The translations under genes and the position numbers were made by a program. Positions 2,699 through 64,000 of a stretch of 64,000 nt of DNA are shown here, piece after piece. The stretch is from a virus. Location of the stretch: positions 21,717-85,716 of IMG/VR virus record IMGVR_UViG_3300025073_000041. One strand, written 5' to 3'. Under the pieces are notes generated by a model that was not told the DNA's origin, searched no databases, and worked only from the letters and a program-made list of their open reading frames with translations. Position 1 is the stretch's first letter. Each line of letters begins with the position of its first letter.

Positions 2699-3022
2699 AT
2701 GAACACCCAGATCAACGCTCAGCGACTTCTGCCCGCGCCTCGCCAGCCTAAGGCTCTGCTCTACCCTGCCCGGCAGCCCGTGTCCGTCCGCCTGGCCATG
2801 CGTCGACGCGAAGATAACAGCCGCGTCACATGGGCTGGCTTGCCTCTGGCTGAGCTGGCTTCCAGGGTCGGCCGCTACGCCATGGCACTGGACAGCGACG
2901 GCAGCTCAACCGATCTGTGGCGCTTTTGCGATGGGAGCGCGATGACTCGCGACGTGTTGGGAGTGCTGGCGTTCTGGCGCAGCGCGTCGGACGTCGACGT
3001 CGAGATCCTGGCCAGCGAATAG
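2699..3022 (+). CDS. Hypothetical GC-rich protein
   Basis: A 107-residue protein starting MNTQINAQRL, with GAAAGAGG ten bases upstream. It is Arg/Ala/Leu-rich and shows no domain I can recognise. Its GC-rich codon use matches the DUF932 fragment and the small membrane peptide, and contrasts with everything right of 3.4 kb. Confidence 0.6.
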   Translation: MNTQINAQRLLPAPRQPKALLYPARQPVSVRLAMRRREDNSRVTWAGLPLAELASRVGRYAMALDSDGSSTDLWRFCDGSAMTRDVLGVLAFWRSASDVDVEILASE

Positions 3023-3436
3023 TCGCAAGGCAAGAAAAAGAAAATGGCGAGACAGGGGGGGGACCCCTCCCCCCTCCCCTCCCTCCCCCGCCCGGGATCT
3101 ATGTCTCCGGGGATCGGCCAAGCATCAGGAGGGAGCTATACCCGTTTCCCATACGGGGATAATTTTTACACAGATCCGTCCCCTTCTGCCGTCCTCTTCT
3201 GCCTTCTGGCTTCAGCAAAGTTCACAGCTAGCTCACAATAAGATTAAATAAAGTATCACATATCCCGCGCCCTCGCACCCACAATATCCCACATTGTCTT
3301 AAAAAAAAGATCATGTTCCGCCTTTTTTGAAGAATTCCGGAGGTTTCTTGGCGAATTTGAAAAAAAGATATGGATGTCATGGGACGGAAAAATCCGGGGG
3401 AATATTTTGGTATAGATTGCCCAAGGAGGGATGGCA
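3023..3436. other. Gene-free stretch with a G-run/C-rich tract and a terminator
   Basis: No supported gene. At 3055-3062 there is a run of eight G, followed at once by a C/T tract to about 3090, able to fold back on the G-run. A terminator-like hairpin lies at 3141-3157. The remainder is AT-rich with no conserved feature; the two short open frames there have no good start or composition. Confidence 0.6.
3141..3157 (+). terminator. Rho-independent terminator-like hairpin
   Basis: CCCGT (3141-3145) pairs with ACGGG (3153-3157) and is followed by GATAATTTTT. It is suitably placed to end the plus-strand small-gene transcripts. The stem is short, so confidence is moderate. Confidence 0.45.
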
Positions 3437-3490
3437 AGGAAGAAAATATAAAAAAGAAGTATATTCCCCTTCGTATGTTATATTTATAGT

Positions 3491-3631
3491 ATGTCGAAGT
3501 TTCGTACTACGACCCATGAAAGAACCGCCGCCCTGGCGGGGATAGCCTGCTGTCAAGAAAGCTCTGGTTCTGGCCTTGCGGCGAGAACGAAACTTTCTCA
3601 TGGGCAGGAATCGAGCAATCATGTTAACTAA
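3491..3631 (+). CDS. Micro-ORF, TnpB N/C fusion (46 aa), second copy
   Basis: Same length and junction as the frame at 793-933 (MSKFRTTTHERTAALAG... to SSNHVN). Differences between the copies include Y to H, K to A and L to H changes with no frameshift. The open frame may persist because the overlapping RNA structure is conserved. Translation is unproven. Confidence 0.3.
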   Translation: MSKFRTTTHERTAALAGIACCQESSGSGLAARTKLSHGQESSNHVN

Positions 3632-3662
3632 GGAGTTCATGGTTTAAGTCTCGAAGGGGAAA
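3528..3662 (+). ncRNA. Candidate omega-RNA scaffold (mini-element 2)
   Basis: The hairpin TCTGGCC-ttgc-GGCGAGA (3569-3586) keeps six of seven pairs, and the outer GAAAG/CTTTC pairing is retained. The flanking sequence that would serve as guide (from about 3661) differs from those of the other copies. Confidence 0.45.
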
Positions 3663-3711
3663 AGAGCTATTTATTAGGGCAATGCCAAGAGAGGCAAAAG
3701 GAATAAAATAA

Positions 3712-11990: not shown

Positions 11991-12128
11991 CCCCTTCGAG
12001 ACTTAAACCATGAACTCCTTAGTTAACATGAATGCTCGATTCCTGCCCAAGAGAAAGTTTCGTTCTGGCCGTAAGGCCAGAGCCAGAGCTTTCTTGACAG
12101 CAGGCTATCCCCGCCAGGGCGACGGTTC
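11991..12128 (-). ncRNA. Candidate omega-RNA scaffold (full element)
   Basis: It overlaps the 3' end of tnpB and the right end, as in known TnpB loci. The hairpin TCTGGCC/GGCCAGA (12064-12070 with 12075-12081) is perfect, enclosed by GAAAG/CTTTC pairing. The guide would be read from the sequence left of 11991 (on the minus strand, ATATGAAGTAGCAG...). Confidence 0.55.
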
Positions 12129-13254
12129 TAAGGTTAATGGCTGCGTTGAGGTCTCGGTCGTGGACAACCCCGCAAGCCTCGCAAACCCATTTTCGGACGG
12201 ACAAAGGCAACGGCCCTTCTCGTCTCGTTCCGCAGTCGGAACACAACTTGGAAGAAGGGAACCAACGGTCGGCAACAATGATTTCACTGCCGGCAAGCGG
12301 AGCTTTATACGTAAGCTGACGCTTAATTTCCGACAAGGCAGCATCTGCAACCGACTTTGCAAGATGGTGATTTGCCATCATTCCTTTGACGTTCAAGTCC
12401 TCGATTCCAATCCGACGAAAGTCTTGGACCAGCCGAGTGGTAAGCTTATGTGTTACGTCTTTGCGGATGTTGGAAATCCGTTCATGCAGCCGACCAAGCT
12501 TCATTTTAGTCTTCTGCCAATTTCTTCCTCCTATGACGCGACGAGACATTTCCTTGTTGAATCGTCGCAGTCTAGTTTCGTGAGCACGCAGAATGCGCGG
12601 AGCCTCGACCCGTTCTCCCGTGGAAAGCACGGCAAGGTCTCGGAGCCCGAGGTCCACTCCAACCGCTTCTTGGGTTTCGCAGCGATTGGGATAGGACCAG
12701 GAGTCGGAGACTTGAACTTGGATCGAGACGTACCAATGACCGGCATGTTTCATAAAGTGAGCAGACAAGATTTTGCCGGGGAATCTTATCTCTTGTCGGG
12801 TGCGGACCCAACCAAGCTTGGGAATCTTAACTCTTCGGCCGTCAAATCGAAGGGCTCGACCTTCAATAGCAAAGGACATTTTGTTCCGTTTCTTCGACTT
12901 GAAACGGGGATAGCCGGGCTTTTGGCCAGATTTAACACGGCGAAAGAAGTTGGAAAAAGCATTGCCGAGGTTGGACAACGCCGTTGCGGCAACAGCCCAC
13001 GGCAGCTTGATCATCCAGGGAAATTCGGTAGTTTTACAGGCATTCAGTTCAGAGCTAAGACTAACCCACGACGGTTTTCCACCAGCCTCGTACTGAGCTT
13101 TCCAGCGGTCCAATCCCCAATTATAAACGAAACGAGAAGTTCCAGCGCAACGTTCGAAAAAGGTTGTCTGGACGTTATTAAGATCCAGCCGAATGCGTTG
13201 GCCGAGGATAGTTATGAGGCTTTTGTCGGAAGCTGTAGAATGACGTTTCGGCAC
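12019..13254 (-). CDS. tnpB: TnpB RNA-guided endonuclease, intact
   Basis: A 411-residue protein starting at the GTG that aligns with the ATG of both mini-elements; a GTG 18 bases upstream is possible. All RuvC residues are present: D201 in AVGVDLGL, E285 in IGIEDLNVKGM, D368 in HDRDLNAAINL. The zinc finger has C338, C341, C358 and C361. TnpB cuts DNA matching the omega-RNA guide next to a TAM and preserves the transposon at donor sites. No Shine-Dalgarno precedes the start, but TATATTTATA sits just upstream, so the mRNA may be leaderless. Length is normal for the family. Confidence 0.95.
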   Translation of the reverse strand: MPKRHSTASDKSLITILGQRIRLDLNNVQTTFFERCAGTSRFVYNWGLDRWKAQYEAGGKPSWVSLSSELNACKTTEFPWMIKLPWAVAATALSNLGNAFSNFFRRVKSGQKPGYPRFKSKKRNKMSFAIEGRALRFDGRRVKIPKLGWVRTRQEIRFPGKILSAHFMKHAGHWYVSIQVQVSDSWSYPNRCETQEAVGVDLGLRDLAVLSTGERVEAPRILRAHETRLRRFNKEMSRRVIGGRNWQKTKMKLGRLHERISNIRKDVTHKLTTRLVQDFRRIGIEDLNVKGMMANHHLAKSVADAALSEIKRQLTYKAPLAGSEIIVADRWFPSSKLCSDCGTRREGPLPLSVRKWVCEACGVVHDRDLNAAINLRTVALAGIACCQESSGSGLTARTKLSLGQESSIHVN

Positions 13255-13356
13255 ACTATAAATATAGCACACGAAGTGAAATATGTTGATTTTTTTGTAA
13301 ATTCGTTGTTTCGTCTATCAGCAGTCGTGTTAACTAAGGAGTTCGTGGTTTAAGTC

Positions 13357-13964: not shown

Positions 13965-16127
13965 CTATGGGGCGATCTGGCGGTTCCAGATCCTAACTCC
14001 GTTTTGGATGCAAAAGGCGGGCTGATATTGCATGGCTCCTAAAGAAATACCTAGTTTTGTCGTGCTTGGAATAGAAATTGACGTTCCCGAAGATGCTTCT
14101 AAGACATCATCAATATAAACCGCATTATTTGACGTTCCCCACAACCCCGTGAGCGAATGAACAGAATTGTCCATAATATCTGTAGTTCCTATTAAATTGG
14201 AAACACTAGAATTCCCAACTAATATTTGCTGTCTTCCAACGCTGGTATTTGTATTTATAAACCAGCCAACCCTATTTTCATTTGTTCCATCTGACAAAGA
14301 AAATAAAGCCTGGATCGTATGCGGCGCGTCAATACTCTTGCACATAAAACTAAATTCCATTGTCCCTGTGTTTGGTCCCGTAAAAGTATATTCTAAAGAG
14401 TCTGTATTTCTTGTCACTTGCGCCGTTGTCGTTGCAATAAAAGATGTTGCTGCGCCATATGCTTCTACCTGAGCACCAAGTAAATAACCTGATACCGTTG
14501 CATCATCCCCTGCAAATTCGTTGTCGGTGTCAGCTTCCGCAAATGCAATTTTATGTGTGTGTGATGCTGCTGTTCCAAGATACGCAATAGAAACTCTGCA
14601 ATAGTCACCAACATCTTGCACAAGAGCCTCGCTTGCTCCTGCCCCTTTTGTGCCAAGAGCACAAGACGAAATATTAAAATAGCTATATGCGTTGGCTACT
14701 GTGTCATCTGACAAATATAGCCAGTCTCTGTTTCCTGGTTTGGCATATACGGAAAAAGTATGTGTTGCAGCAGTTAATGTCACAGCTTGGGTAACGCCAT
14801 GCACAGAGGTTCCTGTTCCGGCTGTAAACCCATCTGCCAAAGCCGTTCCAAATATGTCGGTTGTGCCGTCCGCTATGTCGTCAAGGGCATCAATATTTGT
14901 CCATGTTGTGCCAAATGCTGAGCTTTGAAGTATTTTATTTGTTATTGCAGGTTCTGCCAAGACACCATTTAAACATTCGTCGCTGTCGCAGTCTCGAACA
15001 ACTCTAGGCCAACCGGAGCCAACATTAAAAAAGTTGGTTGCGTTGTTTGTGTGTGTGTCCTGAATTTCAAGCGTTGCTGTGGTCGCTCTTGTATATGTTG
15101 CAAGTTTTGTTGGTGCGGTTTGCGGGTATATGCCGGCCAATTGGTAAAAGCGCTGCTTCGCGATCACGGCCCATTCTGCGGGACCGTCGGCGCCGGCTTT
15201 GTGCCAGGAGGGGTATTTCCACATGGCGACGTGAACTAGGTTACTACCAAAGGGCAACGCACCCGTTGCAGACGCCAAAACTTTTAGGGTTGTCGCTTCT
15301 GACATGTTGCCGACAGAACTAGCGTCTACACCGGTCCCTGCTGTTGCATTACCGTAACAAACCATCCCATTTGTGCTAGCCTCGTCTCTATTCACAAAGC
15401 AGATCGTATGCGTCCACGACAAAGCACTGGCAACAGAGTCCGCATATTTATTGTCTGGACCATCATCAATTGAAAGCCGGTTAGAAGTGGTATAGCTTGT
15501 TATTGACCAGAAAGCCGTGCCACCTTTTTGTGCTAAAAAGCTAGTTGCTGCTGGCGCTTTCGTCATAAATTCTAGGGCAAAGTCCTCTGTACCTATATCC
15601 CCAACCGTGTTTGCGCTTGCCTGAAAATAATCGGCACCACCACTAAGCGCAGTTGTGCCGTCTGTGAATGGAGCCGCTACACCGGGTGTAACGTCCGCCC
15701 CACCGTTGACAACGGCCAGCGTCCCGCCATAGTCGCAAGCCCACGTCGACGCGCCTGCGTCCTGCCCCTCACACCACACGCTAGGCGCAACTTCAATGCC
15801 GTTTATGGTGAGGTTTTTGGAAAGCTGGGAAAGGCCAGAAACCAAATTCCCCCCAATCTCATCATATCCCAACTTAAAAATAACTTCGTCTGCACAATTA
15901 GAATCGCATCCGTCCTCACTTACCAAATTTCCATCATCGCACGTCTCTGTACCGTTTGTTACTCCATCACCACATGTTGCCTGGACCATCAAATCCCCAG
16001 AAACACCAGACTTTATAACAAAATCTCCCGAAATGCCAGACTTTATAACAAGCTGAGAGCAGGAGCTTTCATCACAAGACAAAAGAAAGAATATCACTCC
16101 TGCTATAATAGATTTCATCATCTTCAT
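13965..16127 (-). CDS. LamG-containing lipoprotein with Myxococcales-type Cys-rich repeat
   Basis: A 720-residue protein. MKMMKSIIAGVIFFLLSC is a lipoprotein signal (LLSC lipobox). A duplicated VIKSGxSGD motif follows at 27-45. CGDGVTNGTETCDDGN... DGCDSNC (52-79) is the cysteine-rich repeat seen repeatedly in Myxococcota and related surface proteins. The rest contains two concanavalin A/LamG-like regions (about 110-330 and 560-715, the latter ending GVRIWNRQIAP). It probably binds carbohydrate or is a surface adhesin. Its place among virion genes leaves open whether it is in the particle or on the infected cell. Confidence 0.75.
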   Translation of the reverse strand: MKMMKSIIAGVIFFLLSCDESSCSQLVIKSGISGDFVIKSGVSGDLMVQATCGDGVTNGTETCDDGNLVSEDGCDSNCADEVIFKLGYDEIGGNLVSGLSQLSKNLTINGIEVAPSVWCEGQDAGASTWACDYGGTLAVVNGGADVTPGVAAPFTDGTTALSGGADYFQASANTVGDIGTEDFALEFMTKAPAATSFLAQKGGTAFWSITSYTTSNRLSIDDGPDNKYADSVASALSWTHTICFVNRDEASTNGMVCYGNATAGTGVDASSVGNMSEATTLKVLASATGALPFGSNLVHVAMWKYPSWHKAGADGPAEWAVIAKQRFYQLAGIYPQTAPTKLATYTRATTATLEIQDTHTNNATNFFNVGSGWPRVVRDCDSDECLNGVLAEPAITNKILQSSAFGTTWTNIDALDDIADGTTDIFGTALADGFTAGTGTSVHGVTQAVTLTAATHTFSVYAKPGNRDWLYLSDDTVANAYSYFNISSCALGTKGAGASEALVQDVGDYCRVSIAYLGTAASHTHKIAFAEADTDNEFAGDDATVSGYLLGAQVEAYGAATSFIATTTAQVTRNTDSLEYTFTGPNTGTMEFSFMCKSIDAPHTIQALFSLSDGTNENRVGWFINTNTSVGRQQILVGNSSVSNLIGTTDIMDNSVHSLTGLWGTSNNAVYIDDVLEASSGTSISIPSTTKLGISLGAMQYQPAFCIQNGVRIWNRQIAP

Positions 16128-47520: not shown

Positions 47521-48498
47521 TTAGTCCTCTGGGCATATTTTCCCAATCTTTCCTTTGTAATTACGCAACTTCTCGGTTTTTTGCGGACTTGTCTTAACTT
47601 CTTCTATCTCTTTATCCACAAAAACATCAAAATAATACTCCACAAAAGATGAGTCTATTTTTATATCTTCACATGAAACTTCTTGCTCGTCCAACAAGAT
47701 CCCATCGACAAATCTTTCTTGTTTTTTAGCGAAACTAAGAGGAACCAACACGTCCTTACCACTAGTACCTGACTCAACTATATAAACTTCCAAATCAAAA
47801 TTCTCTTTTTCATCTCTTACGTTTTCTTCCATAATGTCAGTTAGAAAACAATCCCCAATTATTTCTATAAAAGAACCATCATCAAACTGATTGTCAAACA
47901 TTTTTATTTTTGACATATCGTCAGAATATACAACCTCTCCTTGACTCGGTCTAGAAACACCCTCTTCCATTGAAGGAGGATTTCCCTTTCTGATAACAAT
48001 ATCATAATTATAATCTTTAGTTGTAAGCTGAGGTATTTTTACCAAAGAAGAATAAGAAGAAGAAAAATACGATACTGAACCAGTAAATTCCCCTCCTGTC
48101 ATAACAATGTTCCACGCAGGCGAATACTCTCTGGTTCTATCTGAAGACCCTATGGGAAGAGCCATGAAATAATTCTTGTCTTCCGACAAAACAATCGGCC
48201 TATCAGAAAAAGTCTGTCCTTGGCTTTCAGACCGTATCTGTTCTGCCTTTCTAGAGATTTGTGTCTCTCTCCCAGAAAAAATCGTTTGCACCTCTAGCCG
48301 TTCGATGCCCTCTAAAATCCTGTCCTGTATTGCATTCTGTGTTTCGTCTGCCGAAGAAGCGTAATCTTCATCATATATGATATCGTCATCATAAAAATCA
48401 TATCCAATGGGACGAAATTCACCTCTCGCAAGAGCTGATTTACCGTAAGGAGTAAGTTTAAAATCAATTACTCTTTCTTTTTTTTCTAAGAATTTCAT
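47521..48498 (-). CDS. Tail-associated structural protein
   Basis: A 325-residue acidic protein. FKLTPYGKSALARGEFRPIGYDFYDDDIIYDEDY (residues 14-47) is the module noted for the TDAGRKRLA family. The rest has no recognised domain. It overlaps the giant protein gene by 4 bases, so translation is coupled. Confidence 0.65.
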   Translation of the reverse strand: MKFLEKKERVIDFKLTPYGKSALARGEFRPIGYDFYDDDIIYDEDYASSADETQNAIQDRILEGIERLEVQTIFSGRETQISRKAEQIRSESQGQTFSDRPIVLSEDKNYFMALPIGSSDRTREYSPAWNIVMTGGEFTGSVSYFSSSYSSLVKIPQLTTKDYNYDIVIRKGNPPSMEEGVSRPSQGEVVYSDDMSKIKMFDNQFDDGSFIEIIGDCFLTDIMEENVRDEKENFDLEVYIVESGTSGKDVLVPLSFAKKQERFVDGILLDEQEVSCEDIKIDSSFVEYYFDVFVDKEIEEVKTSPQKTEKLRNYKGKIGKICPED

Positions 48499-51400
48499 CT
48501 CCTTCTCTTATCTCCTAAGTTTTCGAACATACCAACCGTCGGCGGACCTTCTTGTTCTTCCGAAGAGGCAACAACGATATTCTGCGGAGGATTGTCCATT
48601 TCCTTTTTCTTCCCACCATCAGAATCCGTCTCTGCTCCAGCCATGCTATCTGCTCTAGGAACATTTATTCCTTCAGCCTGAATTTGCTCGATAGAAGGAC
48701 GAATAATTAAGTCTGCTTCTATTTCTCCCAACTCTACCAAGGAACAGAAGTCATACGGCCAGTTATAAGAATATTCCGGTTCCTTACGACCAACTTGGAA
48801 ATCAAAAATAAATCTGTCGTCATCTTTATTGTTTTCTGTTACTTTAAAGTAGTTCTTCTCTGCCTTTTGTTTTACTTTAAACACCATCCACCGTGTATTT
48901 TCAGGAATTCCCTCTTCATTAAAGAACTCATATTCGTCAAACGGATGAGAAATAGAGGTTTCTACTTTTTCTGCTCTTCTAGAAGATTCCGGCATCAAAC
49001 CCTGCCAGATCAAAGCCAAGTCATCTTTTGTAAACGTATGCTCAATTTCAAAAATATACATTGCAAACGGTTCCATATCAGAGTATGTACCAAAGTCAAA
49101 TTCAGGTGGAATAATATAGTTCTTCATCTTTTCCACCATTCTGGTAATGCTAGTTGTCTTTCTTTGCTTCATTGACTCTTCAACAACCATTCTACCTTCA
49201 GAAACCCTTCTCCTCTGCTCCTCAAGCTTCTGACGAGAAATCTTAAAGAAGTTCCTTCCAGCAATCTCGGTCGTTACCGGCTCTTGTGTCCTTTGCTCGT
49301 CAAGGAACGGTATTGCAACAACAGCTTCTTTAAACTTCTTAAACGAAGCAACTTCGCCAACCCTCTTCTTAGACGGAGTAAAACCACAAACGTCTAGCAA
49401 AGAACCTACAGTAATATCAGAGGTGCTGTTAGCAAAAGATATTTGATACTCTGGTACAACCTTTGTCGTCTGCCCTATCCCTCGAATACTATCTTCTATC
49501 TTTAAGTAAAGACCAGCAGAGCCTGTCGGTATTTGTCCATAACTAGACCACACAGAAGAACCCTGGCTGCTGTTTGACGACGTTACATGCAGAACGGGAC
49601 ACTCGTATCTTGTAGAAATAACCCATCTATCAAAAGAGGTAGAATCAGAATCTTCTGTTGTCCTAGCCCCAGTTTCTTGTCCCACAGAATAAGTTGTTAC
49701 CTTTTCTCTTGTCTTCCCAAAAATGTCCACAGAAGACACAAACGGCATTGAACCAGAATATGCTGCGGAATCTTTATACAAAGAGTAAATCTGATACCAA
49801 AGAGAATCAACTATAGCTGTGCTATACGTATAGAAATTATCTCTTAGAAGATTTTCTACTGTTAACCCATCAAAATTGTCATAATCACTACCAGAAATAA
49901 TCATTTCTGGTTTTAAGTTCTCCAGATAGGCAGCACTGCCGGCCAAGTTGGTTCCGGAAATCCTGTACCCAAACTTTTGATTATTGGAATAATCTCTAAC
50001 ATATAACTCACCAGAAGATGTATTTACATATGTAGTTGTAACATCTACCGGCAATAAATTAATTGCCCTAAAGAAAGCTTGTGCTGACATCGACCTTCTG
50101 CTAGCGCTTCCGGAATCTATAATAATTTCTCCATCTACCGATGTCGAACCCGTAAATCTTTGAACAGCAATCTCGTTCCCGCTTACATCATAAGCGGCAA
50201 AAAAACCATCCGCATTAATAAACGGAGTGTAATCTCCTATACTAGTAAAAACCGTACCGCTAGTAAACAGCTTTGTATTAACAAAATTAAGAATAACATC
50301 TTTATATGTTCTTAAATCTCTATGAATTCCTCTAAAAAGCTCTTCTTTTTCTCTATCGTAACTTTCGACTTGTAATCCTGCTAAAATCTCATCTAAAGTA
50401 TATTTCTTTGTATCGTCTGCCAAGAAAGAGACTCTGCAAATAGAGTCTCCGTAATAATACGGAGGAGTAAATTGAATAAAGGATGGATCTTTTTTCATCA
50501 AATCATTCGTTAAACTTGCGCTGGCAAAATCAGAAGAAGATACTTCTGTCAAATTATAAATCAGTGAAGGAGGACCAAAGTATCTTCCTTGGTAATTATC
50601 ATCAGAGCTTCTTACCATATCTATTCCATCTTTTGCCAGAATCAAATCCATATAATACGTAGTTCCAGACTGCATCGTCTTAAATTCAGACTCTTTTTTA
50701 GAAACAAAAGATGTAAATTTCTCGTCTTTCAGGAAGAACCTCGAAGACTCAGCAAAAAAGTTATTAGAAGCTAAACTATAATCTGTTTTATTTTCTCCAT
50801 CCCAAGAAATAAATGGATATGCAGAACCAACATATTCCCCAGAATAAATAAAAATTTTGTCCGCTCCATGTGCACCAGCAAAAAGCTGGCTACCTGAAAC
50901 AGCAACCTTTGAGCCCACAACGTCATTAGCAGCAAACCCATCAGAAATTTTTTCCCGAAAATAATAATAACCATTTTCCTTTTCATAAAGATAAACACCC
51001 CCCGCATTGCTTGCCGCATCGTCAAGCCCAGTAGCCCCTACAATCATTAACCCGTCACAAAAATCTACTGAAGCCCCGAAGAGATCACCTGTTCCAGATT
51101 CCCCAGAAACGATTTTTTGTTTTTCAATCCACCCTCTTAAATAATCTAATTCATAAAGATAAACAGAACCCGCTTGCTGACCATCTTCATAAGTATAATA
51201 ACTTCCAACCGCCAATTGGCTACCATACCCATCAACCGAAGTTTTTGTTCCAGAAATTGCCACAGAAACGCCAAAATAATCATCTGCTCCCCCATCGCTG
51301 GCGGATATCGCTTGCAGCAAAGACCAAGGGTCTACCCCGTTGGTTTTATAAATATAAATTTTCCCAATTGTTGGTGTACCCGCACCGCCATATTCCGAAA

Positions 51401-54400
51401 CAAAAGCCCAGGTTCCACTTACTAAAACTTTCCCGCCATAGGCCCCGTCGTCGGGCTCCACAGAAGAAGAAAACTCTGCTACCTCTACATAACCACTTGA
51501 CCCACTTTGTAAAATATAAGCCCTCCCCTCTAAAGTATCCCCACCACCATATATGTTTGCTCCTACCGCCAAAGTAGTACCATCAAAACTTAGCGCTCTC
51601 CCAAAAACACCAGAACCAGTAAAATCAGAAGCTGTTATTTCTTGAACACACTGCCAGATGTTGGTCTGCTTCTTAAAATACAAAACACGTCCTGCCCCTG
51701 TCTCCCCGGATATATCCGAAGCATAAGAACCCACAAAAGCCTCGTCTCCGTAAATTGCAACAGCAGAACCATACTTATCTCCCGACACAATGGTCCCCGT
51801 AGGAATAAGATCGGAATGTTTTGTCCAAGTACCAGAAGTGTAATTGAACACCTGTACGCTTCCAGTAGGATCTGTAGTATCTCTAAATGTACCAACAACA
51901 AACTGCGAATTGTCTCTATCTAGTTTCATATCATAAGAAAACAAAGAACTCGCTGTACCTGTAATCTCTTGCTCTAACTTTGCAACTAAAGTTTCTTCAT
52001 AATCCGGACTCAGCAAATACATTCTTCCTTCTCTGCTGCTGTTATTGCTGCTCGAAAGAGGAAGAGCATAAGAAGGATCAATAATCGACTCAAACGGCAT
52101 CCGATAACCAGAATAATTTTTAATCGTTCCTGAATAGTAGTTCACACTAAAATCGTCTTCATCTCCAGTCGTACCTGTCATAATCGGCCAATCGACAGCA
52201 ATGCCAGATTTGACTGTATTGTAGAAGATTCCGGGAGCATAAAACGGCTGAATTAGGCTCTGAATTGCTGACTCTTTATTTGACTTGTTTGTGTCCCAAG
52301 AAATATATGGTGCATACGATTGAGAAAGTAAATTACCAAGCTGTACAGACCTCTGAACAGGATAAAAACCGTTATAAGGAAGTAGTTTTTTTATCCCTCG
52401 GAAAGTCATCGAGAACTCGCGAACTTTATCTTTTTGCTTCTTGTGATCGTCGTAAACCTCATTGAATGCTTTCATCATATCTGAGTGCGAATAAATCTTA
52501 TAGAACTCTTCATTTGCTGTCGTTCTAGAAGAATTATACATACTAGAAGAAACATTAGTACCAACTGCCGTTAAAATACCTCTGTTTTTCTTTCTGAAAT
52601 CCCCACCAGCTTCATTAATATACCACCCCATGTGCTCTGAGATTCTAAATTCTGGTAAAATAGTATATCTTGCGCCCATTGGCCTAATTTCATCAGAATA
52701 TTTGTCATAAGAATTATAAAACGGATTAATCCCAGACTCTGAGTTCGCAGTATAGTTTGTTCCACTTTCTTTTAGAGTAGAACCAGATAAATACACATCG
52801 TAACAGAACTGAAGAGACGGAATCCCCGTTCTACCATAAGCAATTAAATCTTTTGTTCTTGTCTCGCCCATAGAAGCAAGCTCGCCATAAGGAGAACTTC
52901 CAGAACCATCTTCCAGAGCCCAAACAGAACCAATCCCCATGTTGAACCCAAGAGAATTTACAAAATTGCTCTGCGTTCTGTCGTCCTCTGTGTCTTTCCA
53001 GAAAGTAATTCTATCGCTTCCTTTAATTCCAGAAGAAGTAGAGTCATCGTAATAGTTTCTCGCATGAATCATATCAAATCCGACATTTTCATGCTTCGGA
53101 TAAATGATCTCTGGCGAATAAATGGAAACAAATTTATGTTCACCCAACTTATAAAGATTCAAACAAGTTTCATAGATTGGTATAGAACATTCCCCAACGT
53201 TCAATCTATTAGCAAGTTTCTGATTCGCAAAATGTTCCTTTAGGTTTCTATATGGATATGTAAAAGACACAATATTTTTATTTATATCTTCGACAATATG
53301 AGTTATTGGCTTATTCCAAGTTACAACCGGCTCATAATAATTCGTAAAAGAATCTGCCCTATTGTCAAAAAAATGTTTTTCTCTACCCTGGGAGTCAACA
53401 AAAATTCTTTCTTTAGAAGGATCTTCAACAGAATAGATGTTTTCTTTTCTTAAAGCCCTTGCAACAGGACCCTCTCCTGCTCGTATCTGTTCCCAAGATG
53501 CCCACTGATAAGGACTCCAAGAACCCGTCTGCCACGATGCATTATGAGTTAAAGTATTTGTAGTTGTACTAATTTCGTTTTCTTTTGTCCTAACGTTTAA
53601 AGAAGCCGTTCCAACCCAATTTACAAGATTAGTCGTTCCACTAACTTCTTGGAACTCCAGCACCATACTACCTGTTGTGGGTTGCGTTGTCGAACCAGAA
53701 ATCCACGAATATCCATAAATACTTCTGGGAATTTGGTGAGAAACAAATCCGTTATCGTATCGCTCTTGCAGAATTTCTGTCGGATTCACAACTACCGTTC
53801 TAAGCGGATTACAGTTCGTCTTGTGAACATTCGCAACTCCAGTAGTAGAAAGACCCCCAGAAACCATGTGAAGCTGAAGGCTTGTATCATATTCTTGTCT
53901 TACTTCAAGATTTCTAAAGGGTTGCGCATTGTGAGTAGAAAGCTCTTCTGCAACTGGATCTAACCAAATCTTGGTTAAGGTTTTCTTTTCCCCAGGAGAA
54001 GAAAATAGAGTTCTAAAACAATACTTATCGACTCCTTTAAAGGGAGCAAAGTTGTTAGGGCTTTCGCCAGAAAGGTAAGAAGACGTCCAAGAAGAATACA
54101 CTGGTATCGAAGAACTTCCTGAAACATCAACAGAAACATTATGAAGTATGAATTGGTCAAGCCTTAATGCTGTGCCCGTAACAGAATAGTCTTCACTTGC
54201 TTGAGCGTAATAAATTTTAACATAATTAGAATCCGCTAACCCAACATTTCTCGTCGCTGTAAAAGCATATCTACAATCATAAAAAGCATTTCCAAGCTCC
54301 GTAATCGAACTTGTGACCACAGCAACAGAAGAACTTCCAATCGCACCAGAGCCAGAAGTTAAATCGAAATAGCAATAAGGAATATCCCATGCAATTTCCC

Positions 54401-57400
54401 CATAATCATAAAAACTATAAATCCATGGATAAGAAGAAGAGTCGGCTGTTCTAGCAATTATTCTTACCCACAAAACACTCCCGCTATTAAACCAAAAATC
54501 TCCTGGATATGCCATTCCATGTGTTGTAAGCGCTACACCATCCGCTGAAAACCCCGTACTCGAACTAACTTCACCGTTTGGACCTTCATATTCATCCGGA
54601 TAATAACTAAGGTTTTGATATGCGCAAGAAGAAAAATCACTGCTGCTAACAGCAACCACACTGCTTGTAACTATGTCATAATGGTCAACAACCGTCCCTG
54701 ATGTATATATCTCTGCCGGAACCATTCCCAAATCAGAAACAAAATAACCCCCATTGTGTGCACCAGAAGCTACCATATCTGGTCTTTGGTTATATCTTCC
54801 AGAGACATTAACTATTTCATAGTCGTGAGAATAATTCCCAATAATATTCTTTCTATCTGGCTCATGTCCAGTAGCAATGCTGCTACTATACCCCGAAGGG
54901 ACGGTATAAAACTGATGAGTAGAGGAACTTACCTTTATATTTTCTATAGAGGTAAAAGGAGAGCTGTTTAAAGAGCCAGTTAAAGTTTTAATATAGGTGC
55001 TCGACGGTTCAGTTACAACAGAAAAGTGCCTCTTCGCAAAAGTAGAACCAGAAACATTAGAAAACATAGTATATTTCAACTGTGTTTTATTCGAATTTAC
55101 GCTGGGGTCCCCAGAAGCTATCTCAGAAAAGCCTCCTTCCGCTCTCTGCTTTTTCCAACGCCACATATCAGCAGTACCATCTAAATCAGTAACTACAGAA
55201 TGTGTTGAATTACCCCAGGTCAGTCCTTGATCAGCGGAAGAGCTTATCTGTACACTTTCGGCACCAGCAGACCCAGACGCATTACAGATATAAAATATAT
55301 CATTTTCATCCACGAATGCCCACGGATTAGTAATCCATTCTGAGTTTACGCTACAGTTATATGTGTCATAACGAATAAGAGTCAAATCGGTACTCTCTCT
55401 ACTCATTAAATATACCATGTTAGTATATCCGTAAGTAGTGCCCTGGTTTACCCCATAAACAAGCATCTTACTTCTATCTTTATTTGCCGCAAGAGTCCAG
55501 AATAACCTTACCCCAATTCCGTACGGGATATATCCAGTTTCATTAACATAGCCGAAAGAATTGCCGTCTAGTGAAGATGTATAAAAATAAAAATTAGCTC
55601 CCCAATCCTGGGCGCCCTTGTCCATAACAAAAGCCATTTTATTATCACTAAAGTAATCAACAGCACGAAGACCAGCATTCTGGTCTAAACTACTTGGCCC
55701 AGTGCATGTCGTCGCTGGGACAAGCGTAACAGGATTAGTATATCTTACATCAACTGTAGTTTCGGTGGCTATTGCAAATAAATAAAGTCTGTTTAGTCCA
55801 GCATGATGAAAAAGGAGATAAGCTGCATTGTTAGGAGAAAGCCCAGATTCTCTAGAGTCCACAACCTCTCCCCAAGTATATCCATTCGAAGATGTATAAA
55901 AAGAAGATGTCGCTGCATTATAAGTTTTTGTCACAAACGCATCTATCGTAGATAAGTAAATTGGGGGGCTCTTCTTTTGAGAACCAAAAGTCTCGGGACT
56001 TTTCACCCAGCCAGAACCAGAGTTTACATAATATGTTGCCCCAGCCGTATATATATCGTCTCCCGTTGAAGATGCCGTAGAAACCGCCAAAAAAATGTTC
56101 TGCGTTGCGTGTGAAACAAATCCTCTCATTAAAAATGTTTCTTCTGTTGCCCCCGTTACCCAATTGTTACCATTTAAATAAATTCTTTTTATCTTGTCGA
56201 GGTCTGAGGTCGTGTTATGATATAAATAGCCGTGGATTCCACTGCCACTAATTTCCGGTACGTATCCTTTTGTTAAATAAACCGCCTCATAAGGCATTTT
56301 CTCTGTAGCTGGATAAAGTGTTGAGACTGTATTAAAAAGCGGCGGACGATTTGCATGGGTTTCTCCCCAATTATACAAAAGTTCGTTCACACCATAGGCG
56401 TGTGCTTCGGGTTCTTCTGTCTTAAACTCCATTGTCGGATACGGAGTTTGATACTTGTTTCTCTCCAGAACGTGGCTTTCAACAACCGTTCTCATTTCCT
56501 CTGAAAAATCAGCAGTTGCCGGGATTAACTGTTGCACCATCTGGCCAATAGAAGAATCAATCCATTTGTAATAGTTAAGATATTTTTCTACGCTTGGAGT
56601 ATTCCCAATACGCTCAAAGAAAATCTTTCTTAACTTTGCTAAAGACTTATATTCTTCTCTGTATCTGTTAACAGGCTCTCCAATGAGGTTGTTAAAGTCT
56701 ACAACTCCAGCAAAAAATTTTAATATCTCTTCGGAAACGTTTTGATAAATACTCTTTTCCAAAGCCCAAAAATACTTTACAGGTCTTGAATCTCTTGTAA
56801 AATATTCATCATCATTTGAAAGAATACTAACCATATCCCCGCTTGAAAGAGATTCCGGTAGCTGTTGCCTACCCGCTAAAATGTGTTCTCTAACTTGCGG
56901 AGTTGTTCCAGAAGTAAAAAAGATTGCAATACCAGGATAATGTCTTTCGACAACGTTATCAACACTCCCATTATGAAGATAGACATAGCTTCCAGAAGAA
57001 TAATCTGTTACGTTAATGCCGTAGTATGAAATCCCGCCATAGGTAAGCGCCGAAAGACTACCCGTTCCAAACTCCCAATTTAATGCCAAAGCCTGGGATT
57101 CTTGGAGATTGCTTTCTTTTTCCATCTCTCTCGAAGGATTCAAAACTCCATAATTAAACGGATCCCTAGCGTGAGCGTCAATCTCTTCTGTCTGTAGCTT
57201 TTTTTGAAAATATCTTATGTTGGCAAATTTTACATCAGAGTATTGTTCTATACTTCCAGTAAAGTTTGTTCTTGCTGCGCCGGCATAAATTCGTCTGCTT
57301 GTTTGTAAAGAAGACGTTGCTAACACTTGACTAATACTTGCCGACACGTTAAAACTATTCTGTTTTATGTCTCCGCAATAATTTACACCATAAAAATCTA

Positions 57401-59666
57401 GCCAATATGTAGTCGAAGTTATATTCGAGGCATCTTGAGAATTTGGATAAAGTCCGACTCCAAAACTCCAATATTCATTATCGTAAACATTACTGTAGAC
57501 AGAACTGGTAAGTTGTGTAGAAAAGACGCTACTTGTTAAAAGCCAATATCCGTTCTTACTGTCGATTGCTTCCTTTACAAATAAAACTTTAAATATGCTG
57601 TTGTTCGTACTATAATTTTTAATACCAAACAAAGAAGAAGATACAAAAGGGGCGCTATAAAAAAGCTCGCTGTCTACGTCTGCTCTCTTCGGAAACACAA
57701 CGCCAGCTTCAAGAGTAAATGGAATATAATTAAACCCTGTAGAGCCCGTGATGTATTCTAAATCGTCGTCTGTCAAGCTGCTGGTTGCCTGTATTAAGGA
57801 TACTCCAAAATTATCAGCATCGTCAAGAGAAAGAAGATTTACTTTTCTTGCTGTTTCCGTTGTGTTGTTTTTTAAAGAATATTCTGTATTGTCTGAATAT
57901 AGATTTAACTTAACAACTTCCTCATCTGTACCGAAACATCTAATCAGATTTCTTACCGACTTCTCTGTTCCTTTACTTTTGAGAACATTTGTAATATTGT
58001 TATAGATGTTTTCATAAATTCTGTTCTTAACGTTATAAATCTTCTCTTCGAAATCTTCTTCGTTGCTGCGACCAATCAAAGATTCTAATAAAGTAGAATC
58101 TATGAAAATATCCGGCACCTTAACTCCAAGACTTTCCAGTCTCTTGTCATTAAATGGATATGGTTTTTCATCATCGTTGGAATAATGAACATCATTCAAA
58201 GATGAAACCGCATTAACTTGCAGATATAGATGATCAAAATAACTACCTATTATCTGAGTAAGATTTCTAAGAGAGTAGTCTTCTTGTTCTTGATCTTCTT
58301 CTAAAATCCACCCAGGAATATCGTTATAAACCCAAGAGTTGTTAGAAACATCATGTATAGAACCAGAGTTCGCCATCTCCGCTGCTTTTGCAGCAACATA
58401 AGGGTTGGTAGAATATAAAATAGGCTCTTTATATTCTGTCTCTTTGCCGAAATAGCTGTCAATAGCAGAACCCGTGCTTCTACTCGTGGACAAGGAACCA
58501 GACCAAGCCCCATGAGAAAGGCGACCAGAATAATCCAAAACAATTCGATCTGTCGCATGTATACTAGAAGAAGAAAAAACTCCTTCGTTAAATTTGTAAT
58601 AAACTCCAATATCCGTACTAGCGTCATCGGTATTCGCCCCGCCGTCTACCGTAGAAAACCAATTCTGTCCAATTTCTTCGTTTGTTCTAGCAGATTTCCA
58701 AAAACGGAACTCATCCAAAGAACCAGAAAGCTTTCCGGAACCAGTAGCAAACGAACCAGACCCAATCAAACCACCAATGGTAGCGTGTACGTAATTTACA
58801 CAATCAATAAACTTACCAGATCCCGTAGTAGAAGAAACAGAATCATCTCCAACAAAAAATTCTATGGTAAATGTATTTGCAGTCGCATGATTAGAAAGCT
58901 TAAACCCATAGTGTCGCCAGTTATTATCAAATGCTTGCGCAGCCGTATATCCTGTCAGGTCAATTACGTTTTGACTTGCCGAGCCAGAACAAACAGAAGC
59001 AATACTAAAAGCACTGCTGCCGCTGTTGTTCAATAAAATTGTAAAATATTGAGAATAATAGTCATTTAAACTAAAGACCACTTCAGAATTGCTACCAGTA
59101 ATTCCCCTTTTTAACCAAAATTCTATATAATTCCCAGAACTCCCACCAAACCTGAGATTCGAAGCTCTTTCGTCATCCTCGGAAAAAAGATTCGCCCCTA
59201 GATAGGAATTTGCATCCCCAAGATTAGGACCCCCTTTTAAATAAATATATTCAGGATTTGAAACGATGTTGATTGTTTTCGAAGAAATAGCACCAGTAGA
59301 CGTAATTGTAATTACATTATCAGAAGAAAAATTAGCATATCCTGTAGTTCTAGGATAGATTTTATCAAAAATCCAAGAATCTACAAAAGAACCACTGTTT
59401 AAAAACTCTTGTTTTTCAGTTTTGCTGCCATCAAAGGGGTAAAACTCCTGAATTTTTAGAAAACTATCAGCAAAATACCTCTCTGCACTGCCATATTTAC
59501 ACCAACTTGCCAAATCGTCAAAATCGACATGTGGAACAAACAAACTTTTATCATAATTGTACGCAGAAGGATAATTTGTAGATTCAAGCTTATCCTCTAT
59601 CTCGCTTTTACTTGTCAACTTAAGGTTTTTTAGTTGACTTCGAGAAAAAAGGTCTTTAATTGCCAT
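48495..59666 (-). CDS. Giant baseplate/tail protein (3,723 aa) with LamG and beta-propellers
   Basis: An uninterrupted 11.2-kb gene preceded by AAGGGAG. A LamG/concanavalin-like domain lies at about 175-365 (YIEFWLKRG ... LSGSLDEFRFWKSARTNEEI). A sialidase/BNR-like region lies at about 1150-1500 (SSNGYTWGE, SADQGLTWGN). Seven FG-GAP-type blades fill about 2580-2945 (GDKYGSAVAIYGDEAFVGS, DLFGASVDFCDGLMIVGA and similar). The C-terminal 400 residues are charged and conserved in type with phage tail proteins. Position after the gp6-like gene suggests a baseplate wedge or fibre role, perhaps replacing gp7/gp10, with lectin-like domains for receptor binding. Confidence 0.8.
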   Translation of the reverse strand: MAIKDLFSRSQLKNLKLTSKSEIEDKLESTNYPSAYNYDKSLFVPHVDFDDLASWCKYGSAERYFADSFLKIQEFYPFDGSKTEKQEFLNSGSFVDSWIFDKIYPRTTGYANFSSDNVITITSTGAISSKTINIVSNPEYIYLKGGPNLGDANSYLGANLFSEDDERASNLRFGGSSGNYIEFWLKRGITGSNSEVVFSLNDYYSQYFTILLNNSGSSAFSIASVCSGSASQNVIDLTGYTAAQAFDNNWRHYGFKLSNHATANTFTIEFFVGDDSVSSTTGSGKFIDCVNYVHATIGGLIGSGSFATGSGKLSGSLDEFRFWKSARTNEEIGQNWFSTVDGGANTDDASTDIGVYYKFNEGVFSSSSIHATDRIVLDYSGRLSHGAWSGSLSTSRSTGSAIDSYFGKETEYKEPILYSTNPYVAAKAAEMANSGSIHDVSNNSWVYNDIPGWILEEDQEQEDYSLRNLTQIIGSYFDHLYLQVNAVSSLNDVHYSNDDEKPYPFNDKRLESLGVKVPDIFIDSTLLESLIGRSNEEDFEEKIYNVKNRIYENIYNNITNVLKSKGTEKSVRNLIRCFGTDEEVVKLNLYSDNTEYSLKNNTTETARKVNLLSLDDADNFGVSLIQATSSLTDDDLEYITGSTGFNYIPFTLEAGVVFPKRADVDSELFYSAPFVSSSLFGIKNYSTNNSIFKVLFVKEAIDSKNGYWLLTSSVFSTQLTSSVYSNVYDNEYWSFGVGLYPNSQDASNITSTTYWLDFYGVNYCGDIKQNSFNVSASISQVLATSSLQTSRRIYAGAARTNFTGSIEQYSDVKFANIRYFQKKLQTEEIDAHARDPFNYGVLNPSREMEKESNLQESQALALNWEFGTGSLSALTYGGISYYGINVTDYSSGSYVYLHNGSVDNVVERHYPGIAIFFTSGTTPQVREHILAGRQQLPESLSSGDMVSILSNDDEYFTRDSRPVKYFWALEKSIYQNVSEEILKFFAGVVDFNNLIGEPVNRYREEYKSLAKLRKIFFERIGNTPSVEKYLNYYKWIDSSIGQMVQQLIPATADFSEEMRTVVESHVLERNKYQTPYPTMEFKTEEPEAHAYGVNELLYNWGETHANRPPLFNTVSTLYPATEKMPYEAVYLTKGYVPEISGSGIHGYLYHNTTSDLDKIKRIYLNGNNWVTGATEETFLMRGFVSHATQNIFLAVSTASSTGDDIYTAGATYYVNSGSGWVKSPETFGSQKKSPPIYLSTIDAFVTKTYNAATSSFYTSSNGYTWGEVVDSRESGLSPNNAAYLLFHHAGLNRLYLFAIATETTVDVRYTNPVTLVPATTCTGPSSLDQNAGLRAVDYFSDNKMAFVMDKGAQDWGANFYFYTSSLDGNSFGYVNETGYIPYGIGVRLFWTLAANKDRSKMLVYGVNQGTTYGYTNMVYLMSRESTDLTLIRYDTYNCSVNSEWITNPWAFVDENDIFYICNASGSAGAESVQISSSADQGLTWGNSTHSVVTDLDGTADMWRWKKQRAEGGFSEIASGDPSVNSNKTQLKYTMFSNVSGSTFAKRHFSVVTEPSSTYIKTLTGSLNSSPFTSIENIKVSSSTHQFYTVPSGYSSSIATGHEPDRKNIIGNYSHDYEIVNVSGRYNQRPDMVASGAHNGGYFVSDLGMVPAEIYTSGTVVDHYDIVTSSVVAVSSSDFSSCAYQNLSYYPDEYEGPNGEVSSSTGFSADGVALTTHGMAYPGDFWFNSGSVLWVRIIARTADSSSYPWIYSFYDYGEIAWDIPYCYFDLTSGSGAIGSSSVAVVTSSITELGNAFYDCRYAFTATRNVGLADSNYVKIYYAQASEDYSVTGTALRLDQFILHNVSVDVSGSSSIPVYSSWTSSYLSGESPNNFAPFKGVDKYCFRTLFSSPGEKKTLTKIWLDPVAEELSTHNAQPFRNLEVRQEYDTSLQLHMVSGGLSTTGVANVHKTNCNPLRTVVVNPTEILQERYDNGFVSHQIPRSIYGYSWISGSTTQPTTGSMVLEFQEVSGTTNLVNWVGTASLNVRTKENEISTTTNTLTHNASWQTGSWSPYQWASWEQIRAGEGPVARALRKENIYSVEDPSKERIFVDSQGREKHFFDNRADSFTNYYEPVVTWNKPITHIVEDINKNIVSFTYPYRNLKEHFANQKLANRLNVGECSIPIYETCLNLYKLGEHKFVSIYSPEIIYPKHENVGFDMIHARNYYDDSTSSGIKGSDRITFWKDTEDDRTQSNFVNSLGFNMGIGSVWALEDGSGSSPYGELASMGETRTKDLIAYGRTGIPSLQFCYDVYLSGSTLKESGTNYTANSESGINPFYNSYDKYSDEIRPMGARYTILPEFRISEHMGWYINEAGGDFRKKNRGILTAVGTNVSSSMYNSSRTTANEEFYKIYSHSDMMKAFNEVYDDHKKQKDKVREFSMTFRGIKKLLPYNGFYPVQRSVQLGNLLSQSYAPYISWDTNKSNKESAIQSLIQPFYAPGIFYNTVKSGIAVDWPIMTGTTGDEDDFSVNYYSGTIKNYSGYRMPFESIIDPSYALPLSSSNNSSREGRMYLLSPDYEETLVAKLEQEITGTASSLFSYDMKLDRDNSQFVVGTFRDTTDPTGSVQVFNYTSGTWTKHSDLIPTGTIVSGDKYGSAVAIYGDEAFVGSYASDISGETGAGRVLYFKKQTNIWQCVQEITASDFTGSGVFGRALSFDGTTLAVGANIYGGGDTLEGRAYILQSGSSGYVEVAEFSSSVEPDDGAYGGKVLVSGTWAFVSEYGGAGTPTIGKIYIYKTNGVDPWSLLQAISASDGGADDYFGVSVAISGTKTSVDGYGSQLAVGSYYTYEDGQQAGSVYLYELDYLRGWIEKQKIVSGESGTGDLFGASVDFCDGLMIVGATGLDDAASNAGGVYLYEKENGYYYFREKISDGFAANDVVGSKVAVSGSQLFAGAHGADKIFIYSGEYVGSAYPFISWDGENKTDYSLASNNFFAESSRFFLKDEKFTSFVSKKESEFKTMQSGTTYYMDLILAKDGIDMVRSSDDNYQGRYFGPPSLIYNLTEVSSSDFASASLTNDLMKKDPSFIQFTPPYYYGDSICRVSFLADDTKKYTLDEILAGLQVESYDREKEELFRGIHRDLRTYKDVILNFVNTKLFTSGTVFTSIGDYTPFINADGFFAAYDVSGNEIAVQRFTGSTSVDGEIIIDSGSASRRSMSAQAFFRAINLLPVDVTTTYVNTSSGELYVRDYSNNQKFGYRISGTNLAGSAAYLENLKPEMIISGSDYDNFDGLTVENLLRDNFYTYSTAIVDSLWYQIYSLYKDSAAYSGSMPFVSSVDIFGKTREKVTTYSVGQETGARTTEDSDSTSFDRWVISTRYECPVLHVTSSNSSQGSSVWSSYGQIPTGSAGLYLKIEDSIRGIGQTTKVVPEYQISFANSTSDITVGSLLDVCGFTPSKKRVGEVASFKKFKEAVVAIPFLDEQRTQEPVTTEIAGRNFFKISRQKLEEQRRRVSEGRMVVEESMKQRKTTSITRMVEKMKNYIIPPEFDFGTYSDMEPFAMYIFEIEHTFTKDDLALIWQGLMPESSRRAEKVETSISHPFDEYEFFNEEGIPENTRWMVFKVKQKAEKNYFKVTENNKDDDRFIFDFQVGRKEPEYSYNWPYDFCSLVELGEIEADLIIRPSIEQIQAEGINVPRADSMAGAETDSDGGKKKEMDNPPQNIVVASSEEQEGPPTVGMFENLGDKRRR

Positions 59667-62978: not shown

Positions 62979-63050
62979 TTCTCCTCCTATTAAAAAGAAT
63001 GAATTTACAAAAAAATCAACACATTCCACTTTTTGTACTATATTTATAAT

Positions 63051-64000
63051 GTGTCGAAACGTCACTCTACAACTCCTGATAATAACCTCCCCATAACTAT
63101 CCTCGGCCAACACATTCGGCTGGATCTTAATAACGTCCAGGCAACATTTTTCGAACGTTGCGCTGGAATTTCTCGTTTCGTCTACAACTGGGGATTGGAC
63201 CGTTGGAAAACTCAATACGAAGCCGGAGGAAAGCCGTCTTGGATTAGTCTTAACACCGAGTTGAATGCCTGCAAAACCACGGAATTCCCTTGGATGGCAA
63301 ATCTTCCGTGGGCTGTCGCCAATACGGCGCTGTCCAACCTCGGTTCTGCTTTCTCCAACTTCTTTCGTCGTGTTAAATCTGGCCAAAAGCCCGGCTATCC
63401 CCGTTTCAAGTCGAAGAAATGGAACAAAGCAACCTTTGCTATTGAAGGTCGAGCCCTCCGATTTGACGGCCGAAGAGTCAAAATCCCCAAGCTTGGTTGG
63501 GTCCGCACCCGACAAGAGATAAGATTCCCTGGTAAAATCCTGTCCGCTCACTTTACGAAACAAGCCGGTCATTGGTACGTCTCGATCCAAGTTCAAGTCT
63601 CCGACTCCTGGTCCTATCCTCACCGCTGCGAAACCCAAGAAGCGGTTGGAGTGGACCTCGGACTTCGAGACCTTGCCGTGCTCTCCACGGGAGAGCGGGT
63701 CGAGGCTCCGCGCATTCTGCGTGCTCATGAAACCAGACTGCGACGACTCAACAAGGAAATGTCTCGTCGCGTCAAAGGAGGGAAGAATTGGCAGAAGACC
63801 AAAACGAAGCTTGGTCGGTTGCATGAACGGATTTCCAACATCCGCAAAGACGTAACACATAAGCTTACCGCTGGGCTGGTCCGAGACTTTCGTCGGATTG
63901 GAATCGAGGACTTGAACGTCAAAGGAATGATGGCAAATCACCATCTTGCAAAGTCGGTTGCAGATGCTGCCTTGTCGGAAATCAGGCGTCAGCTCACGTA
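63051..64000 (+). CDS. tnpB: TnpB RNA-guided endonuclease, 3' end outside window
   Basis: GTG start aligned with the copy at 12019-13254. The 316 visible codons (SKRHSTTPDNN...) are open and closely similar to that copy. D201 (AVGVDLGL) and E285 (IGIEDLNVKGM) are intact; the zinc finger and the last RuvC Asp fall beyond the edge. There is no Shine-Dalgarno; TATATTTATAATG immediately precedes the start, again suggesting a leaderless message. Confidence 0.92.
   Translation, partial: MSKRHSTTPDNNLPITILGQHIRLDLNNVQATFFERCAGISRFVYNWGLDRWKTQYEAGGKPSWISLNTELNACKTTEFPWMANLPWAVANTALSNLGSAFSNFFRRVKSGQKPGYPRFKSKKWNKATFAIEGRALRFDGRRVKIPKLGWVRTRQEIRFPGKILSAHFTKQAGHWYVSIQVQVSDSWSYPHRCETQEAVGVDLGLRDLAVLSTGERVEAPRILRAHETRLRRLNKEMSRRVKGGKNWQKTKTKLGRLHERISNIRKDVTHKLTAGLVRDFRRIGIEDLNVKGMMANHHLAKSVADAALSEIRRQLT

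Follow-up and report, generated by a model that had tools for sequence, protein, structure and literature searches.

A predicted seven-bladed FG-GAP propeller inserted in a giant baseplate-type protein of an uncultured tailed phage

The stretch of DNA analysed here (64,000 nucleotides; referred to as the window) spans positions 21717-85716 of an 85,716-base viral record. On its minus strand, a gp6-type gene is followed by a gene for a 471-aa protein and then by a giant gene, which an earlier note, made from the letters alone, had read as a single open frame of 11.2 kb. Indeed, this frame runs without interruption and encodes a protein of 3,723 aa, which recurs identically in two further viral records. 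The coordinates of the genes and of the segments discussed below are collected in Table 1.

Table 1. Genes and protein segments at the giant-gene locus (positions in the window; aa, residues of the giant protein).
Feature	Position	Strand	Basis
gp6-type baseplate wedge gene, 595 aa	61143..62930	-	phrog_6, 3.5e-18; upstream of giant gene
Gene between gp6 and giant gene, 471 aa	59728..61143	-	gene order
Putative giant baseplate protein (P0001), 3,723 aa	48495..59666	-	uninterrupted single frame
LamG-type domain 1, aa 144-345	58632..59237	-	PF13385; in all 34 relatives
Conserved core segment 1, aa 430-600	57867..58379	-	matches immuto_161 and LR756508 ORF; kept in relatives
Second ConA-like jelly-roll domain (predicted), aa ~600-860	57087..57869	-	AlphaFold2 and Foldseek; kept in relatives
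Conserved core segment 2, aa 900-1105	56352..56969	-	matches LR756508 ORF; kept in relatives
Private Asp-box-containing module, aa ~1112-1565	54972..56333	-	three Asp-box-like motifs; putative fold
Private insert, aa ~1655-1850	54117..54704	-	near-zero occupancy in relatives
Conserved middle scaffold, aa 1875-2530	52077..54044	-	alignment with relatives
Seven-bladed FG-GAP propeller (predicted), inserted, aa ~2556-2944	50835..52001	-	Pfam, profile, AlphaFold2, Foldseek; absent from relatives
Conserved scaffold, aa 2951-3105	50352..50816	-	alignment with relatives
Private insert, aa ~3110-3300	49767..50339	-	near-zero occupancy in relatives
Conserved C-terminal scaffold, aa 3301-3660	48687..49766	-	alignment with relatives

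The gp6-type gene product is 28% identical to the baseplate wedge protein of Flavobacterium phage immuto over its length, and the 471-aa product weakly matches the gene at the same position in the large phage LR756508. Both phages have matches to the gp6-type gene, to the core of the giant protein and to several neighbours, with the order kept, and the gene order next to gp6 in the contractile-tail module is found in viral relatives as well; terminase, portal and major head protein are also encoded by the virus. By sequence, the core of the giant protein matched neither a baseplate protein of known structure in the PDB nor an annotated PHROG. Among the PHROGs it gave two weak, single-member matches, and in the PDB only the LamG part had a match, a weak one, to a domain of an S-layer protein; the middle and C-terminal scaffold had no match in the PDB. 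For a comparison of the core helices with a T4 gp7-type wedge, the AlphaFold2 model was of low confidence. The best explanation is that the giant frame encodes a large, wedge-type component of the baseplate, whose gene comes after gp6 in one clade of tailed, uncultured phages. The baseplate setting assumed in the earlier note is borne out by the gp6-type gene upstream and by the core homology to immuto_161, which lies in the same place.

Further elements were observed in the window. Two OrfB_IS605/TnpB genes are present, one immediately upstream of gp6 and truncated by the end of the window (63033-63998, plus strand; PF01385, 3e-30), the other at 12019-13272 (minus strand; PF01385, 2e-29), and TnpB copies of ~91% identity occur elsewhere in a record of this virus that measures 153,920 bases. 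Judged by these matches, one phage carries several IS200/IS605-like elements. A ~140-base stretch (window 3521-3663) is repeated near TnpB copies at 92-96% identity and is possibly an element end or a guide-RNA-type segment standing alone. A 720-aa ORF (13965-16127, minus strand) that weakly matches LamG and also matches a tail-protein PHROG (3.4e-13) and DUF4215 is a candidate adhesion or fibre protein.

Comparison of the giant protein with its relatives was based on 80 viral loci gathered with a gp6 neighbour, from which the giant ORFs of 34 relatives were extended. As recovered, these measure 1,259-5,456 aa; contig ends truncate some of them, and the shortest (L102, 1,259 aa) represents the N-terminal part only. 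Comparison with all 34 showed one colinear scaffold common to them and this phage; in an alignment with 13 of the relatives it comprises aa 1-1105, ~1600-1630, 1875-2530, 2951-3105 and 3301-3660. The two longest relatives (L101, 5,456 aa, and L095, 5,191 aa) have large extra stretches at other positions of the scaffold.

Two ConA-like domains are part of this scaffold. The N-terminal one matches LamG_3 (Laminin_G_3) at aa 181-332 with 30.8 bits against a curated Pfam cut-off of 27.6, so that the LamG domain proposed in the earlier note stands. Its status as a swapped-in module does not: with a LamG model derived from family members, the domain was detected in 34 of 34 relatives, which argues that it is ancestral to the family, and LamG_3 itself was found in 47 of the 49 records searched. 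Seven of these 34 have one more LamG, located near aa 1600-2000 and revealed by the same family-built model; as far as sequence comparison can tell, the family habitually gains binding-type domains elsewhere in the giant protein. The second ConA-like domain was modelled by AlphaFold2 with pLDDT values mostly of 70-95, and Foldseek placed it closest in fold to the CBM2 of the J-1 evolved Dit, with resemblance also to the N-terminal domain of thrombospondin-1.

Between the middle scaffold and the segment beginning at aa 2951, FG-GAP_2 (PF14312) matched with an E-value of 1.1e-27 on the whole protein and of 4.6e-35, in five stretches, on the segment alone, whose internal-repeat score was 175 as compared to a maximum of 51 in shuffled sequences. 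A profile derived from a 33-sequence viral alignment retrieved the integrin alpha-M, -E, -6, -L and -X chains from the PDB (best 4.8e-10). AlphaFold2 predicted 28 strands over the segment, with a pTM of 0.83 and pLDDT mostly 70-95 across the repeats, and the 37 best PDB matches of this model in Foldseek were all integrin alpha subunits (E 1.6e-12 to 7.5e-9; TM-scores by query length 0.35-0.68, mostly 0.63-0.68). Reading of the repeats gave a blade count of seven. Structure prediction thus recovered a propeller fold where the earlier note had expected one (aa 2580-2945), albeit starting slightly before, at ~2556, with aa 2556-2570 read as the strand expected to complete blade 7. Taken together, the Pfam match, the model and its fold matches show a predicted complete seven-bladed, integrin-alpha-like FG-GAP propeller at aa ~2556-2944. 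No match to the integrin-type calcium loop D-x-[DN]-x-[DN] was found in aa 2531-2960, so that it is the integrin alpha propeller fold that is predicted here, not an integrin. A search for donors retrieved FG-GAP proteins of bacteria and archaea from many phyla at 27-35% identity to the propeller, too distant for one donor to be named.

In the alignment with the 13 relatives, the propeller stretch had almost zero occupancy. The site between aa 2530 and 2958 measures 429 aa in this phage versus 27-68 aa in these relatives, and about 25-170 aa in other relatives (pairwise matches, where both flanks align). Of 49 records searched, FG-GAP_2 was detected in this virus and its identical copy only; all 45 further related viral records lacked a match. 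As judged by alignment, the propeller therefore appears as a clean insertion where relatives have a short linker, and the proposal that modules had been swapped in holds for the propeller, which relatives lack at exactly that site. Since the three propeller-bearing records are identical, they document the insertion in a single lineage. Base composition was uninformative as to recent transfer (GC 0.427 in the propeller versus 0.34-0.41 in the scaffold, with unremarkable GC3).

We propose, with a probability of about 0.6, that the giant protein is a wedge-type scaffold with fixed insertion sites, into one of which a propeller has been placed that would be exposed and bind a ligand on the host surface. 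The conserved scaffold, made up of core segments, two ConA-like domains, middle and C-terminal regions, tolerates insertions at a number of fixed places, taken in this phage by the propeller, the Asp-box module and a pair of smaller private inserts. Since it is inserted in a loop, the propeller is assumed to be exposed at the baseplate; it might bind a glycan or a surface protein via the loops of one face, and this binding could add to the cell contact made by the tail fibres before sheath contraction. By analogy with other phages, in which propellers or carbohydrate-binding modules serve in adhesion parts of the baseplate, receptor recognition by this putative adhesion insert is plausible.

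Alternatively, the propeller could be a structural module, an attachment hub or spacer that contacts neighbouring baseplate or fibre proteins rather than the host. Propellers commonly serve as platforms for protein-protein contacts, and those of integrin alpha chains pair with another chain. However, all relatives with the same scaffold do without the propeller, which argues that the baseplate does not need it; we consider this alternative unlikely. Given its presence in one lineage and absence elsewhere, an accessory adhesion module fits better than a required structural part.

A further reading, that the inserted modules are enzymes, takes as its example the stretch at aa ~1112-1565, in which the earlier note had recognised a BNR-like region and which occupies the place of a different segment conserved in relatives. 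Here, one perfect Asp-box (SADQGLTW at aa 1477), of which an example occurs in 1% of whole-protein shuffles, is accompanied by two further Asp-box-like motifs looser than the consensus. The BNR-like region as such was not confirmed: there was no Pfam match, internal repeats did not exceed chance (z 1.3), homologues in the collections searched were limited to identical copies, and the structure model, with pLDDT about 30, is unusable because the region is without relatives. It is short motifs that carry the BNR assignment. A sialidase-like or polysaccharide-degrading Asp-box propeller that clears surface polysaccharide would accord with these motifs, the perfect one included, but family match, homologue and usable model are all missing for this stretch and the FG-GAP_2 repeats give no enzyme signature, making the enzyme reading improbable. 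Finally, the insertion, carried as it is by one lineage, might be an assembly chimera of two unrelated sequences, yet its sequence is identical in three records, the frame is open across both junctions and the propeller's GC3 of 0.304 lies inside the scaffold's 0.28-0.36, leaving this explanation a negligible chance.

In the comparison that the earlier note had suggested, both the propeller and the BNR-like region were missing from the relatives. The preferred reading, a wedge-type scaffold carrying an exposed, ligand-binding propeller, could be extended to a socketed scaffold whose fixed sites exchange recognition domains (LamG in relatives; in this phage the FG-GAP propeller and an Asp-box propeller as a second one), so that the wedge protein would have taken over part of host recognition from the fibres; we regard this wider picture as conceivable, though doubtful. 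Here nature offers a comparison of one and the same baseplate protein in two states, carrying a complete propeller at a narrowly delimited site or lacking it, so that it can be tested directly how phage baseplates gain adhesion-type domains as modules. The relatives add many further giant proteins, with other inserts, to this comparison.

FG-GAP propellers are rare but already known in phages: matches at E up to 0.01 occurred in 16 of 50,697 phage records. The description of such a propeller as unusual in a phage is accurate as to rarity and not as to novelty, given Vibrio phage nt-1, the cyanophages S-TIM5/S-TIM66 and S-MbCM6, and Sinorhizobium phage Phosso. FG-GAP proteins are found in many bacteria, and similar predicted propeller structures in many giant-virus proteins. 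A pattern search of viral contigs returned 73 loci, and four of 36 such records had a gp6-type match, all weak. A literature search that covered few subscription journals yielded no paper joining FG-GAP, phage and baseplate.

The 'FG-GAP repeat protein' of nt-1 and the virion structural protein of S-TIM5/S-TIM66 have the same repeat type, but are stand-alone proteins of about 400 aa rather than insertions in a baseplate protein. Beta-propellers at phage baseplates are represented by phi11 Gp45 and phiKZ gp131C, the latter seven-bladed (PMC4901313); these are separate proteins of other propeller types, unlike the FG-GAP propeller inserted here in a scaffold of wedge type. Carbohydrate-binding modules inserted in a conserved baseplate protein are known from the evolved Dit proteins of lactococcal and Lactobacillus phages, which differ in being siphophage distal tail proteins acting on Gram-positive hosts. 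Immuto_161 (1,265 aa, QQO92079) shares with the giant protein its place after gp6, a homologous core segment and neighbours, yet has about a third of its length, and the immuto genome is without FG-GAP. Cyanophage S-MbCM6 encodes a 7,022-aa 'gp8 baseplate wedge protein' (AFD02696) that, like the protein described here, is a giant ORF with FG-GAP inside (propeller region aa 4405-4754), in this case directly after gp25 and gp6. A metagenomic frame of 6,971 aa (L208/L209; G082, 16002-36914, minus strand) is 58% identical to this cyanophage protein, has its own FG-GAP region and adjoins a 689-aa frame with a gp6-type match. The S-MbCM6 protein is, however, twice as long as ours, with no sequence similarity detected outside the propeller, and the two propellers were probably gained separately.
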